Shown here piece after piece: positions 42,114 to 55,871 of a stretch of DNA of 64,000 nt. Under the pieces are notes generated by a model. The model made no database searches. It was given only the letters and a program-made list of their open reading frames with translations, and was not told the origin of the DNA. This DNA comes from Natronococcus sp. AD-5 (GTDB lineage Archaea; Halobacteriota; Halobacteria; Halobacteriales; Natrialbaceae): assembly GCF_030734285.1 (NCBI RefSeq), contig NZ_CP132294.1, positions 1,364,001-1,428,000 on the forward strand, read 5' to 3'. A program made the translations under genes and the position numbers. Position 1 is the stretch's first letter, and each line of letters begins with the position of its first letter.

Positions 42114-43376
42114 ATGAGCACGGAAACCAAATTCGGCAGCGAAGTTGTCACCGATTTCGCGCACAAGTACGGCCTCGCGTTCGTGATGGTCGCCAGTTAC
42201 TTCGGCTCCGGCTCGGTCTTCATCGCGAGCCAGGCCGGCGTGATGCACGGCTACGCGCTGCTGTGGGCCGTCGTCGGCGCGGCGCTGCTCGGGTTCATGG
42301 CCCAGGACATGAGCGCCCGGCTCGGCATCCACGGGACGTCGCTGATGGTCTTCGTCCGCGAGAAACTGGGTCGCCCGCTCGCGATAACGATCGCGCTGTT
42401 CCTCTCGGTCGGCTGTATCGCCTGGACGCTCGGCCTCGTCGCCGCCGTCGGCGCGGGGGTCTCGTTCCTGACCGGCGGCGCGGTCGCCTGGCAACCCGTC
42501 GCCGTCGCGGCCACGCTCGCCGCGATCGGCGTCGGCCTCTTCAACTACGGCAAGGTCGAGAACCTGATGATCGCGATGATGCTCGCGCTGCTCGTCGTCT
42601 ACGTCGTCGTCGCCCTCCCCAGCGGCGCGAACCCGGGCGAGCTCGCGCTCGGGTTCGTCCCGACGACGGTCTCGACGGGCGCGCTCGTGATGGCCGCCGG
42701 CCTGCTCGGCACGACCGCCCTCTGGCCGAACTTCTTCCTCGAGTCCATCCTCGTCGAGGAGAAGGGATGGACGAAGGAGAGCGACGTGATCGACGCGCGC
42801 CGCGACCTCGCGATGGGCTACGCCGTCGGCGGCATCGCGACGATCGCGATCCTGATCGTCGCCGCCGCGGTGCTCCGCCCGATGGGGTTCGAACAGCTCG
42901 ACTCCTTCCTGACGCCGGGCAGGGCGCTCGTCGACGTGTTCGGCACGTGGGCGATGGTGCTGTTCGTCGGCGGCGTCACCGCCGCGGCGTTCAACAGTAT
43001 CGTCCCGATCATGTGGGCCCCGGCGTACATCATTCCGGAGGCGATGGGCTACGAGGTCGACCAGGGCGACCGCCTCTTCAAGATCCTGTTCGCCGGATTA
43101 ACCGGCGTCGGGATCCTCTCGCCGGTCGTCAGCGCCGCGCTCGACCTCTCGGTCGTCGACATGGTGATCCTCTTCCCCATGTACAACGGCATCTTCGGGC
43201 TCCCGATCGCCACGATCCTGCTGTTCTGGGCGGTCAACGACCGCGAGACGATGGGCGAGTACCGTAACGGCGCGAAGCTGAACGCGATCAACGCCCTGCT
43301 CGTGCTGCTGGCGGTCATCCTCGCCGCGCTCTCGATCGGGGATTTCATCGAACTCATCACGACCGGCGGGTTCTGA
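42114..43376 (+). CDS. NRAMP-like transporter with non-canonical metal-site motifs (copy 1)
   Basis: Predicted membrane transporter of the NRAMP fold, 420 residues with about 11 hydrophobic segments. Helix 1 reads YGLAFVMVASYFGSGSVFIASQAG: the position of the NRAMP DPGN motif holds FGSG. Helix 6 reads TALWPNFFLESILVEEKGW: the MPHN motif is replaced by WPNFF. So the Asp, Asn and Met metal ligands of Mn/Fe NRAMPs are missing. Transport of Mn2+ or Fe2+ should not be assumed; an Mg2+ or other substrate is possible. GGAC precedes the ATG by three bases. Confidence 0.8.
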   Translation: MSTETKFGSEVVTDFAHKYGLAFVMVASYFGSGSVFIASQAGVMHGYALLWAVVGAALLGFMAQDMSARLGIHGTSLMVFVREKLGRPLAITIALFLSVGCIAWTLGLVAAVGAGVSFLTGGAVAWQPVAVAATLAAIGVGLFNYGKVENLMIAMMLALLVVYVVVALPSGANPGELALGFVPTTVSTGALVMAAGLLGTTALWPNFFLESILVEEKGWTKESDVIDARRDLAMGYAVGGIATIAILIVAAAVLRPMGFEQLDSFLTPGRALVDVFGTWAMVLFVGGVTAAAFNSIVPIMWAPAYIIPEAMGYEVDQGDRLFKILFAGLTGVGILSPVVSAALDLSVVDMVILFPMYNGIFGLPIATILLFWAVNDRETMGEYRNGAKLNAINALLVLLAVILAALSIGDFIELITTGGF

Positions 43377-46312: not shown

Positions 46313-47233
46313 CTAGAGGATGCGCTTGCCGAACGCGCTCGCCGTGAGTTCGGCCGCGAGCGTCGCCGTCTCGTTTCGCTCGTCGAGGATCGGGTTCACC
46401 TCGACGACGTCCATCGACCGGAGGACGTCCTCTCGCTCGTGGCGCGTCGAGACGGTCTCGAGCGCCGAGTGCGCCTCGCGGTAGGTAACGCCGCCGCGAA
46501 CGGGCGTGCCGACGCCGGGTGCGGCCTTCGGGTCGAGCCAGTCGAGGTCGAGGCTGACGTGGATTCCGTCGGTTCCGGTCGTCGCGAGGCCGAGGGCCTC
46601 TTCGACGACGCTCGTGATCCCGCGCTCGTCGATGTCGGACATGGTAAAGGCCGTCATCTCGCTCTCGCGAACGAGTTCGCGCTCGCGCTCGTCGATGCTT
46701 CGCAGGCCGACGTAGACGATCGACTCCTCGCGGACGCCCGGCGCGTTCGCCCACTCCAGGTCGCCGAAGCTTCCCCGCCCGAGCGTCGCGGCGAGCGGCA
46801 TCCCGTGGACGTTACCGCTGGGCGAGGTCTCGGGCGTGTTGAGGTCGGCGTGGGCGTCGAACCAGACGACGCCCAGTTCCCCCGCCTGCGACGCCCCTCG
46901 TATCGACCCGATGGCGACCGAGTGGTCGCCGCCGAGGACGAGGGGAAACTCGCCGTCGTCGATCGCCTCCGCGACCTGATCCGACAGGCGCGAACAGACG
47001 TCGCCGACCTCCCGGAGGAACTTCGCGTTCCCCTCGCTGGGCTGTGACGCGTCGGGATCCCGCTCCTCCGCGCGGGGCATGAGCAGATCGCCGGCGTCCA
47101 CCGGGTCGACTCCCGCTTGCTCGAGTTCGTCGGCCAGCCCCGCGTACCTGATCGCCGACGGTCCCATGTCGACGCCGCGACGGTTCGCCCCGTAGTCCAT
47201 CGGCGCACCGATAATTCGGACTGTCTGTCCCAT
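46313..47233 (-). CDS. rocF: Arginase
   Basis: Hydrolyses arginine to ornithine and urea with a dimanganese centre. The 306-residue product begins IIGAPMDYGANRRGVDMGPS like Bacillus RocF and has all metal motifs: LGGDHSVAIG, WFDAHADLNTPETSPSGNVHG, SLDLDWLDPKAAPGVGTP and VEVNPILDERNETA near the end. The arginase-type loop SPSGN argues for arginase over agmatinase. It is next to the regulator gene but on the opposite strand. Confidence 0.9.
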   Translation of the reverse strand: MGQTVRIIGAPMDYGANRRGVDMGPSAIRYAGLADELEQAGVDPVDAGDLLMPRAEERDPDASQPSEGNAKFLREVGDVCSRLSDQVAEAIDDGEFPLVLGGDHSVAIGSIRGASQAGELGVVWFDAHADLNTPETSPSGNVHGMPLAATLGRGSFGDLEWANAPGVREESIVYVGLRSIDERERELVRESEMTAFTMSDIDERGITSVVEEALGLATTGTDGIHVSLDLDWLDPKAAPGVGTPVRGGVTYREAHSALETVSTRHEREDVLRSMDVVEVNPILDERNETATLAAELTASAFGKRIL

Positions 47234-47304
47234 ACGATACCATTCGCGAGCAACGCTTTGGTCGTGCTGGTTCGATCGCGTGATCGACGGCGATAGGTTT
47301 AGGG

Positions 47305-47318
47305 TTAGACGGTTCTAA
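47305..47318 (+). promoter_or_regulatory. Predicted metal-regulator operator TTAGA-N4-TCTAA before the DtxR-type gene
   Basis: TTAGACGGTTCTAA is a perfect 5+4+5 inverted repeat ending 11 bases before the ATG at 47330. It overlaps the expected core promoter, so binding would block the gene itself. The same half-sites with the same spacing occur before the ZIP gene at 48091-48104. Confidence 0.65.
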
Positions 47319-47329
47319 ATTCGACCGAA

Positions 47330-48010
47330 ATGATGCTGAGCGACGTGATGGAAGACTATCTCAAAGTCATCTATCAGCTCCAGCAGAGCACCGACGACCG
47401 GATCAAGACGTCCGCGATCGCCGACGAACTGGACGTCACGTCGCCGACGGTCACCAGCATGATCGAGAAACTCGAGGATCGCGGGCTCGTCGACCGCAAG
47501 AAGTACCGCGGCGTCACCTTAACCGACGAGGGCGAGACGGTCGCCCTCGAGGTGATTCGCCACCACCGGCTCCTCGAGTCTTACCTGACCGAGCACCTGG
47601 ATTACGACTGGTCCGAGGTCCACGAGGAGGCCGACCGGCTCGAACACCACATCAGCGAGGACTTCGAGGCCCGGGTCGCGGCCGCCCTGGGCGAACCCGA
47701 GGTCGATCCCCACGGCGCGCCCATCCCGGGTGCCGACCTCGAACCGCCCCAGCGGCCCGACGGCGAGTCCGTCACCGAGTTCAGCGAGGGCGACGTCGTC
47801 GTCGTCGAGGAGGTCGCCGACCGCGACCCGAAGATCCTCTCCTATCTCGCCGAGCACGGCGTCGAACCCGGCGTCGAACTCGAGATTCTCGAGGTCGCAC
47901 CGTTCGGGATGGTGACGGCCCGCTCGAACGAGCGGGGCGACGCGGTGTCGCTCCCCGAGTCCGTCGCCCACCACGTTCGCGTCGCCCAACCGGCGGAGGT
48001 CGAATCGTAG
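47330..48010 (+). CDS. Metal-dependent transcriptional regulator, DtxR/MntR/SirR family
   Basis: Predicted metal-sensing repressor. Residues 1-70 are a winged helix (AIADELDVTSPTVTSMIEKL, LVDRKKYRGVTLTDEGE), 75-125 the dimerisation/metal domain (HHRLLESYLTEHLDYDWSEV, ADRLEHHISEDFEAR), 160-226 a FeoA/SH3-like domain (VVVEEVADRDPKILSYLAEH, GVEPGVELEILEVAPFGMV). Potential metal ligands are the Glu/His/Asp of helices around residues 80-105. Precedes a ZIP transporter on the same strand and shares its operator. Confidence 0.92.
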   Translation: MMLSDVMEDYLKVIYQLQQSTDDRIKTSAIADELDVTSPTVTSMIEKLEDRGLVDRKKYRGVTLTDEGETVALEVIRHHRLLESYLTEHLDYDWSEVHEEADRLEHHISEDFEARVAAALGEPEVDPHGAPIPGADLEPPQRPDGESVTEFSEGDVVVVEEVADRDPKILSYLAEHGVEPGVELEILEVAPFGMVTARSNERGDAVSLPESVAHHVRVAQPAEVES

Positions 48011-48047
48011 CGTCTTCCATCCGCACTCGGCAGCGTCGCTCGGTTTA

Positions 48048-48064
48048 CCTAGATCGAATCTAGG
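48048..48064. repeat. Perfect 17-base palindrome CCTAGAT-CGA-ATCTAGG
   Basis: Seven-base arms around CGA, 37 bases after the regulator stop and 27 bases before the TTAGA-N4-TCTAA site. It shares TAGA/TCTA cores with the operator and may be an extra regulator site or a 3' hairpin. Confidence 0.5.
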
Positions 48065-48082
48065 AGCTGTCCCGTTGACAAG

Positions 48083-48104
48083 ATATATATTTAGACTCGT
48101 CTAA
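48083..48104 (+). promoter_or_regulatory. ZIP promoter: TATA box with overlapping TTAGA-N4-TCTAA operator
   Basis: ATATATAT (48083-48090) is a clear TATA box. TTAGACTCGTCTAA follows at once (48091-48104), a perfect 5+4+5 inverted repeat with the same half-sites as before the DtxR-type gene. Binding here would hide the initiation region. With the TATA spacing, transcription should start near 48112-48117. Confidence 0.65.
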
Positions 48105-48114
48105 TCCTCTGGCA

Positions 48115-48159
48115 ATGCAACGAACTCGGAGTCTCATCGCACGGGTGGTCGCGGGATGA
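48115..48159 (+). CDS. Possible 14-residue leader peptide before the ZIP gene
   Basis: MQRTRSLIARVVAG starts at an ATG at the predicted transcription start and its TGA overlaps the ZIP ATG (ATGA at 48156-48159). This is the layout of translational coupling. Alternatively it is chance, and ribosomes start directly on the ZIP ATG. Confidence 0.3.
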   Translation: MQRTRSLIARVVAG

Positions 48160-49088
48160 CCGACCGACCCATCGACGACCTGTCGCGCTGGCTCGTCGCG
48201 ACCGGACCGGTCGTCATCCTCGGGGCGATTTTCGGCGTTCTCTATCTCACCTCGCCGTTCGGCGACCTCGGTGCGGTCGACGGGGCGAGCGCGCTCGAGA
48301 TCCTCTGGATGCTGACGATCATCGGCGCGCTCGCCGGGATCGTTCCGGTCGCGATCGGCATGCTCTGGTTCCCGATCATCAGGGATCTCGATCCGCAACG
48401 CATGCACGCGTTTCTGGCGCTCGCGGCGGGCGTGCTCGCGTTCATCGCCATCGAGATGACCGAGGAGGTCATCGAGCAGTCCGCGGAAGCGGAACAGACG
48501 CTCCTCGCGACGGGACTCGCCGTCGCCGGCGTCGGCGGCACCTTCGCGGCGATGTACCTCGTCAGCGAGTGGCGCCAGCGAACGGTGGCGACGGCCCACA
48601 AGAGCGGACTCGAGATCGCCTACCTCGTCGCGCTCGCGCTCGGACTCCACAGCGTCGGCGAAGGACTCGGGATCGGCGTCGCGTTCATCCAGGGCGACTC
48701 CACGATGGTCATGCTGCTCGTGCTGGCGTTCGTCCTCCACAACGTGATGGAGGGCCCGACCGTGGTCGCCGCGGTCGCGCGCGATCGGAAGACGCCCCCG
48801 CTGCGACACTTCGCCGCGATGGGAGTCATCGCCGGCGGGCCCGTCATCCTCGGCGGCTGGATCGGCAGCGTCGGCGAATCGCCGCTGCTCGCCGTCCTGT
48901 TCTTCGCGATCGCCGTCGGCGCGATCCTGCAGGTGCTCATCGAGGTGGCCGAACTAATTCGGTTCGACGCCGAGGCCGTCGTCACCCGGACGAACGCGGC
49001 GACGTTTTCCGTCGGTTTCGGCCTCATGTTCCTGCTCGAGGACGTCGTCAGTAATCTGCTGCTCGAGGGCGGCTTGCTTTCCCTCTGA
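48156..49088 (+). CDS. ZIP-family metal transporter
   Basis: Predicted divalent metal (Zn, Mn or Fe) transporter in the cytoplasmic membrane. The 310-residue product has about eight hydrophobic segments. The ZIP signature in the fourth segment is ALGLHSVGEGLGIGVAF and in the fifth VLHNVMEGPTVVAA, giving the His/Glu binuclear-site residues (H-x3-E and HN-x2-EG). A DtxR-type regulator lies upstream and both share an operator, so its expression is probably metal-controlled. Confidence 0.88.
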   Translation: MTDRPIDDLSRWLVATGPVVILGAIFGVLYLTSPFGDLGAVDGASALEILWMLTIIGALAGIVPVAIGMLWFPIIRDLDPQRMHAFLALAAGVLAFIAIEMTEEVIEQSAEAEQTLLATGLAVAGVGGTFAAMYLVSEWRQRTVATAHKSGLEIAYLVALALGLHSVGEGLGIGVAFIQGDSTMVMLLVLAFVLHNVMEGPTVVAAVARDRKTPPLRHFAAMGVIAGGPVILGGWIGSVGESPLLAVLFFAIAVGAILQVLIEVAELIRFDAEAVVTRTNAATFSVGFGLMFLLEDVVSNLLLEGGLLSL

Positions 49089-54632: not shown

Positions 54633-55871
54633 ATGGAAGAAACCAGTTCCGTCTTCGACGTTCCGTTCAGCAAAGCGAAAGGAATGGTGAACCAGTACGG
54701 ACTCGGCCTCCTGTTCGCGGCGAACATCTTCGGGGCCGGATCCGTCTACATTCTAACCGAGGCGGGCGTTCTGTTCGGGTACGGTCTGCTCTGGGTGTTG
54801 CCCCTCGGACTCGGAGTCGGGCTAGTGATGCACGAGATGTCCGCGCGACTGGCGGCCCGGGACCTGCCGCTGATGGTCTACATCAGAGACGTCATCGGAC
54901 CGACGGCGGCGAAACCGTTCGCGCTCGGTATCGCGTTCATCATGCAGTTCTGGAGCGTCGCGAACTACGCGCTCACGGGCGCCGCGCTCGCGTATCTCAC
55001 GCCGCTTTCGAACCTCTACGTGGGGATCATCGTTTCCGCCGCGCTCGGGATCTCGCTCGTCGAGCTCCGGGTGTACAGTCGAATCGAGGGCGTCATCGCC
55101 GCGCTCGTGCTCGCGATTTTCGCCTCGTATCTCGCCATCGTCGCGAATCTGGACCCGTCGGTCGGCGCGGTGGCGTCCGGGTTCGTTCCCGGCGTCGTCC
55201 GAGAGTTCGAGTACATGACGATGATCATCGCCCTGCTCGGAACGACGGTCTACTACCCCAACTTCTTCATCCAGACGAGCATGAGCGGCGAAAAGGACTG
55301 GGATCTCGTCTCCCGCTACCGTCGCGATCACACCGTCGGTCTGACCGCGGTGGTCGCGCTCAGCGTAACCGTGATCGTCGCCGCCGCCATGGCCGTCCCC
55401 GAAGCGGCCCTCACGCTCACGGCGCCGGCCGAACCGCTCGTCGAGTTGATCGGGCCGTGGGTGCTCGGCATCTTCGTCCTGGCTGTCGGCGCCGCCTCGT
55501 TCACCAGCGCGACCGGGACCCTGTTCGCGGCCGGCTTTATGGTTCCCCAGGCCTACGAGATCCCGACGCGGTTCGGGGACGTTTACTTCCGGCGAACGCT
55601 GCACTTCCTGATCGGCCTGTCGGTCGTCCTCGCGATTCCGATCCTCGCGTTCACCGACTTCACGCCGGTTAGACTCGCGCTCCTGATGCCCGCCGTCAAC
55701 GGCGTCGTCGGGCTTCCGATCACCGCGCTCGCGCTGTACGCGGCGGTCAACCGCTACTTCGATCCGACGGCGACCGAACGGGCGATCTTCCTCGCGGCCG
55801 TCGTCGTGATGTTCCTCACGTCGATCACGACCGGTCACTCGCTCGCGCAGTCGATCATCGAACTCCTCTAA
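54633..55871 (+). CDS. NRAMP-like transporter with non-canonical metal-site motifs (copy 2)
   Basis: Paralogue of the protein at 42114, 412 residues with about 11 hydrophobic segments. Helix 1: YGLGLLFAANIFGAGSVYIL; the DPGN position holds FGAG. Helix 6: GTTVYYPNFFIQTSMSGEKD; MPHN is replaced by YPNFF. The two copies share FG[SA]GSV and PNFF, so these are conserved features of a subfamily, not random loss. Substrate unknown. Divergent from gyrB. Confidence 0.8.
   Translation: MEETSSVFDVPFSKAKGMVNQYGLGLLFAANIFGAGSVYILTEAGVLFGYGLLWVLPLGLGVGLVMHEMSARLAARDLPLMVYIRDVIGPTAAKPFALGIAFIMQFWSVANYALTGAALAYLTPLSNLYVGIIVSAALGISLVELRVYSRIEGVIAALVLAIFASYLAIVANLDPSVGAVASGFVPGVVREFEYMTMIIALLGTTVYYPNFFIQTSMSGEKDWDLVSRYRRDHTVGLTAVVALSVTVIVAAAMAVPEAALTLTAPAEPLVELIGPWVLGIFVLAVGAASFTSATGTLFAAGFMVPQAYEIPTRFGDVYFRRTLHFLIGLSVVLAIPILAFTDFTPVRLALLMPAVNGVVGLPITALALYAAVNRYFDPTATERAIFLAAVVVMFLTSITTGHSLAQSIIELL

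Follow-up and report, generated by a model that had tools for sequence, protein, structure and literature searches.

Two copies of the palindrome TTAGA-N4-TCTAA were identified in the core promoters of a DtxR-type regulator gene (dtxR) and a ZIP-family transporter gene in the window (the whole 64-kb stretch of DNA that was analysed). The reading that explains the locus best, and which is held with considerable confidence, is that a SirR/MntR-type repressor, probably dependent on Mn(II), acts on operators at dtxR and ZIP; that a second dimer binds at the ZIP promoter; and that the transporter is translated by reinitiation after a mini-ORF. The palindromes TTAGACGGTTCTAA (47305-47318) and TTAGACTCGTCTAA (48091-48104), both read on the plus strand, were found where the original prediction had placed them. 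It was also right in describing them as lying at the core promoter of each gene: the first ends 11 nt 5' of the dtxR ATG (47330), and the second adjoins the TATA-like element of ZIP. The genome-wide search that it proposed was run and returned two exact matches in 5,168,305 bases, one at dtxR and one at ZIP, whereas the reversed control pattern gave none. Moreover, the predicted repression of both the regulator gene and the transporter gene is supported at the sequence level by the presence of the site in both core promoters, its near-uniqueness in the genome, and its conserved positions in the family and the class.

According to the proposed mechanism, when the metal is sufficient, a metal-loaded dimer would bind TTAGA-N4-TCTAA between the TATA box and the transcription start of both dtxR and ZIP, and the bound regulator would block TBP/TFB or the polymerase at both promoters. 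When the metal is low, the regulator would leave and the two genes would be transcribed. A further palindrome with a 5-base spacer, upstream in the ZIP promoter, might accept a second dimer, which would make the control tighter or biphasic. The mRNA of ZIP is predicted to begin at, or a few nucleotides from, the ATG of a leaderless mini-ORF of 13-18 codons; ribosomes would start on this mini-ORF, terminate at the start codon of ZIP, and reinitiate there to produce the transporter. The first reading of the locus had overlooked the mini-ORF as well as the additional operator at ZIP.

The regulator (47330-48010, plus strand, 226 aa) contains a winged helix-turn-helix domain (PF01325, 3.7e-20) and a metal-binding and dimerisation domain (PF02742, 2.6e-29), both above the cut-off for the DtxR family, followed by a FeoA domain (PF04023). 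Matches to PDB structures and alignments suggest MntR-like ligands (D9, D102, E105 and H106). Among the conserved metal-ligand residues of the DtxR family, D9, H79, E83, H98, E105 and H106 are invariant, and D102 is kept in at least 90% of the sequences. The element TTTAGGG (47298-47304, plus strand) directly precedes the operator; since (t)TTAGGG is found at the same place in nearly all family members, it is probably the TATA box of dtxR. No second operator was found at the dtxR promoter. An arginase-family gene (46313-47233, minus strand) is divergent from dtxR, and 38 of 46 close loci retain it. The dtxR operator is located within the 96-bp gap common to the two genes, 71 nt from the arginase-family start. 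Arginase-family enzymes are usually Mn-dependent, and the regulator might influence this gene too.

The metal sensed by the regulator is likely to be manganese, with Fe and Zn as possible alternatives, because four lines of evidence point in this direction. Firstly, the alignments place Asp (D9 and D102) at the two positions occupied by Met10 and Cys102 in the iron-type DtxR/IdeR; as known from the MntR and DtxR structures, acidic residues at these positions are diagnostic of the MntR subgroup. Secondly, the best curated model is the NCBIfam MntR model NF047407 (2.8e-61), with 207 bits against a cut-off of 350 and a model name that may point to a thermophile group. Thirdly, outside the family a GDT1 gene is located directly behind the regulator gene in 32 loci, in place of ZIP, and the GDT1 family includes transporters of divalent cations, Mn2+ among them (PMC7380456). 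Finally, the SirR of Halobacterium is reported to repress its own gene in a Mn(II)-dependent manner (PMC3600143), and deletion of its gene raised the zurA/zurM/ycdH (Mn/Fe ABC) mRNA in Mn (PMC1779511). The same operators might instead be used by a regulator that senses Fe(II) (IdeR/Idr-type) or Zn, so that ZIP would import iron or zinc. In its favor, transporters of the ZIP family carry Zn, Fe and Mn, the ZnuA-type binding proteins among the targets can be zinc systems, and the Haloferax proteins SirR, TroR and Idr were discussed as regulators of iron homeostasis (PMC11349517). However, Asp replaces the iron-type Cys and Met ligands, the regulator gene adjoins GDT1 in the relatives mentioned above, the exact sites examined in relatives were not at siderophore-type genes, and the Halobacterium sirR phenotype is one of Mn (PMC1779511, PMC3600143). 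Sensing of Fe or Zn is therefore regarded as possible but rather unlikely.

By its sequence, the product of 48156-49088 (plus strand, 310 aa) is a divergent ZIP-family divalent metal transporter with the motifs HxxxEG (H165) and HNxxEG (H195). The match to Pfam Zip (1.1e-6) reached 28.6 bits, below the gathering score of 35.1 bits; the same model matched 12 of 12 family homologues scanned at E<0.01, and the ZIP profile matched the BbZIP structures (4e-7). Residues H165, E169, H195, N196 and E199 are invariant in the ZIP homologues. The core operator TTAGACTCGTCTAA abuts the TATA-like element AAGATATATAT (48080-48090, plus strand), and ends 10 nt 5' of the ATG at 48115, which is the start of the mini-ORF and not of ZIP. 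The site is likewise located directly 3' of the TATA box in 32 relatives, where the consensus of the box is aAAgatATAtgt.

About 42 bp upstream of the core operator is the additional operator with the 5-base spacer, CTAGATCGAATCTAG (48049-48063, plus strand), which is the sole match of its kind in the window (0 expected). A TTAGA-N5-TCTAA-like site (at least 8 of 10 positions) was present in 27 of 33 ZIP promoters of relatives against 1.2 expected, located 38-43 bp before the core operator. This enrichment is specific to a spacer of 5, and the other spacers from 0 to 8 were far weaker. Searched genome-wide with two mismatches, the N5 pattern gave 531 matches against 781 for the control, and it is useless alone. 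The centre distance between the two ZIP operators is about 42 bp in 18 promoters and 37.5 bp in 9. This arrangement could also belong to a bifunctional regulator, which activates from the upstream ZIP operator at low metal and represses from the core operators at high metal. The N5 operator indeed precedes the TATA/BRE region of ZIP and has no counterpart at dtxR; moreover, the sirR mRNA of Halobacterium correlates positively with its targets, yet the deletion derepresses them (PMC1779511). On the other side, paired operators about four turns apart would suit cooperative repression equally well, and the best upstream site is shifted to the shorter centre distance in the 9 promoters. Activation from the upstream site is thus considered possible but rather unlikely, on a par with the sensing of Fe or Zn, and repression by two dimers is preferred.

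The mini-ORF MQRTRSLIARVVAG (48115-48159, plus strand) consists of 14 codons, and is predicted to be leaderless; its TGA overlaps the ZIP start codon in the sequence ATGA (48156-48159). Its ATG is about 29 nt from the centre of the TATA box, the distance at which a leaderless mRNA of haloarchaea would be expected to start. Of 33 distinct ZIP leaders, 30 have an ATG 9-10 nt 3' of the operator, a spacing that nearly matches the regulator's own (11 nt here). In all 30 leaders having this ATG, its reading frame ends with a stop at the ZIP start, 39-54 nt downstream; the two other frames have a stop in the range of 36-60 nt in only 0 and 5 of the 30. This frame comparison was used as the test, since shuffles with a fixed ZIP start are uninformative (the ATGA itself supplies the stop). 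The mini-ORF is never in the frame of ZIP, its stop overlaps or adjoins the ZIP start in 28 of 30 relatives, and the overlap is most often ATGA or GTGA. Its length and end are conserved across relatives, whereas its peptide sequence is not. An SD-like stretch is present 5' of ZIP in the leaders of 28 of the 30 relatives, which is weak in this genome (GGTGG) and stronger in relatives.

The conserved stop/start geometry together with the SD-like stretch suggests that ZIP might be translated in two steps, a leaderless start on the mini-ORF and then termination-reinitiation. In Haloferax volcanii, 72% of the protein-coding transcripts are leaderless (PMC4983044), and haloarchaea amply use SD motifs for reinitiation but rarely for de novo starts (PMC6728339). 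It could also be that the mini-ORF is untranslated, that its ATG is only initiator-like, and that ribosomes enter ZIP directly through its own SD in a leader of 40 nt. The unconserved peptide and the frequency of the SD-like stretch are consistent with this; however, the frame-specific stop, which falls at the ZIP start in all 30 leaders, and the scarce de novo use of SD motifs in haloarchaea (PMC6728339) make an untranslated mini-ORF improbable, somewhat more so than the alternatives on the metal and on activation. Beyond reinitiation itself, the idea of a double-operator metal promoter joined to a leaderless, sequence-free 'launching' mini-ORF, which exists only to deliver ribosomes to ZIP, is narrowly favored.

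The window comes from a haloarchaeon. When the locus is compared, its closest named relatives prove to be Halopiger, Natrinema, Natronorubrum and Natrialba, a group which we take to be the Natrialbaceae in current naming. Forty distinct regulator upstream regions from homologues of at least 74% identity were compared. The dtxR site matched at least 9 of 10 positions in 33 of these 40, against 0.0005 per region in shuffles; the corresponding ZIP core site did so in 32 of 35 relatives (10 of 10 in 24) against 0.003. The dtxR site is located 23-26 nt before the ATG throughout the family, and the ZIP site at about -60 to -72. A good dtxR site was missing in the relatives L043, L045, L049 and L122. 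Outside the family the site is often kept at the regulator gene. For example, the homologue of Halobacterium salinarum (L141, 61% identical) has TTAGATGCATCTAA at -25, and the Haloferax homologues have TTAGACACGTCTAA and TTAGACGCATCTAA at -19. One genome (G057) has three copies of TTAGACGCGTCTAA, a version with perfect symmetry (L066, L091 and L092), at the regulator gene, a DoxX-type gene and a ZnuA-type lipoprotein gene.

Exact sites elsewhere were sought in 60 relatives. They precede genes of ZnuA-type binding lipoproteins (many), the ArsP_2 (PF11449) membrane protein, GDT1 and MgtE; a few others are located at genes without an evident role in metal uptake, such as those of DoxX and a multicopper oxidase. 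The conserved dtxR and ZIP sites, together with these further sites before metal-transport genes, indicate that the sites define what appears to be a real metal regulon. In this genome, the ArsP_2 gene (G000:C1:3229374) has a one-mismatch site TTAGACATGACTAA 40 nt upstream (G000:C1:3229303-3229316, L008), and is probably the third member. The exact motif, which had been proposed as a concrete means of finding the regulon, therefore serves in part: it recovers two genes here, but the likely third carries only a one-mismatch version. Because exact sites are found at the same gene in several relatives, the ArsP_2 family of 'heavy-metal exporters' may handle the metal of the regulon.

Allowing one mismatch across the whole genome gave 11 further places against 27 for the reversed control, and 1 of the 11 is at a metal-type gene. 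As a regulon finder this search was no better than the control, and only the ArsP_2 site is sensibly placed. In this genome, no site was found at the genes for Nramp, ZnuA and the remaining ZIP proteins, and a GDT1 gene was sought and is absent. Seven Nramp matches are present in the genome; two such genes (about 42228-43271 and 54756-55751) flank the locus and a third is 3.6 kb beyond the window, with the operator at none of them. Near ZnuA-type genes of relatives (loci L086, L088, L089 and L096), an extra TCTAA half-site is located several bases before the palindrome (site at 1801), which suggests that the operator is extended or tandem.

The sites might also be bound mainly by a second DtxR paralogue (C1:302411, a 174-aa frame with PF02742) and not by the adjacent regulator; apart from these two, the genome encodes no PF02742 protein. 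This is very unlikely, as the motif travels with the regulator gene at 47330 through the class, and no site was found near the paralogue's own gene. Finally, a chance origin of the two palindromes in AT-rich promoter sequence, for which it may be said that the one-mismatch versions are no commoner than the control, is refuted by conservation, since the position-specific matches are far above shuffles, and the window contains two exact sites against 0.02 expected, a count reached in 0 of 100 shuffles of the window.

DtxR-family repressors of metal uptake that regulate their own genes are already known, including the haloarchaeal SirR and the predicted archaeal MntR/FetR/ZntR regulons. For the latter, Leyn and Rodionov (2015) reportedly predicted palindromic operators of the DtxR family at ZIP, NRAMP and TroA transporters. 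The TTAGA-N4-TCTAA operators may be new or already predicted there. The haloarchaeal SirR (Halobacterium; HVO_0819 in Haloferax volcanii) resembles the present regulator in its three domains (DtxR with FeoA), its autorepression and its control of metal uptake, the last two being predicted here; L141, the presumptive sirR of Halobacterium salinarum, also has the same operator. The differences are that the neighbour is ZIP and not GDT1, and that ZIP has two operators and a mini-ORF. The bacterial MntR/SloR/ScaR proteins share the DtxR fold and the Asp at the first metal-ligand position; however, their operators are not known to resemble the present one, and the archaeal promoter context (TATA/TFB) would set how repression works here.

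In mycobacteria, a leaderless short ORF delivers ribosomes to a coupled gene (PMC4633059; reviewed in PMC12548453). As in those cases and in the termination-reinitiation of Haloferax (PMC6728339), a short 5' ORF has a stop that overlaps the next start; whereas the mini-ORF described here is archaeal, keeps its length and position while its sequence varies, and is joined to a metal operator. The combination of a double operator with a launching mini-ORF looks new, as no description was found in the literature checked, which did not extend to the key archaeal regulon predictions.

These results suggest that a large family of haloarchaea has a well-bounded metal regulon, open to testing, which comprises dtxR, ZIP and probably the ArsP_2 gene. 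The motif TTAGA-N4-TCTAA could be used class-wide to assign a metal to transporters, such as ArsP_2, that lack a known substrate. With the conserved mini-ORF, nature provides a simple system for testing how translation starts on a regulated haloarchaeal mRNA, here by a leaderless start and then reinitiation; if the proposal is true, it would be a well-defined example, in an archaeon, of initiation that strictly requires a uORF and is coupled to the regulation by metal.
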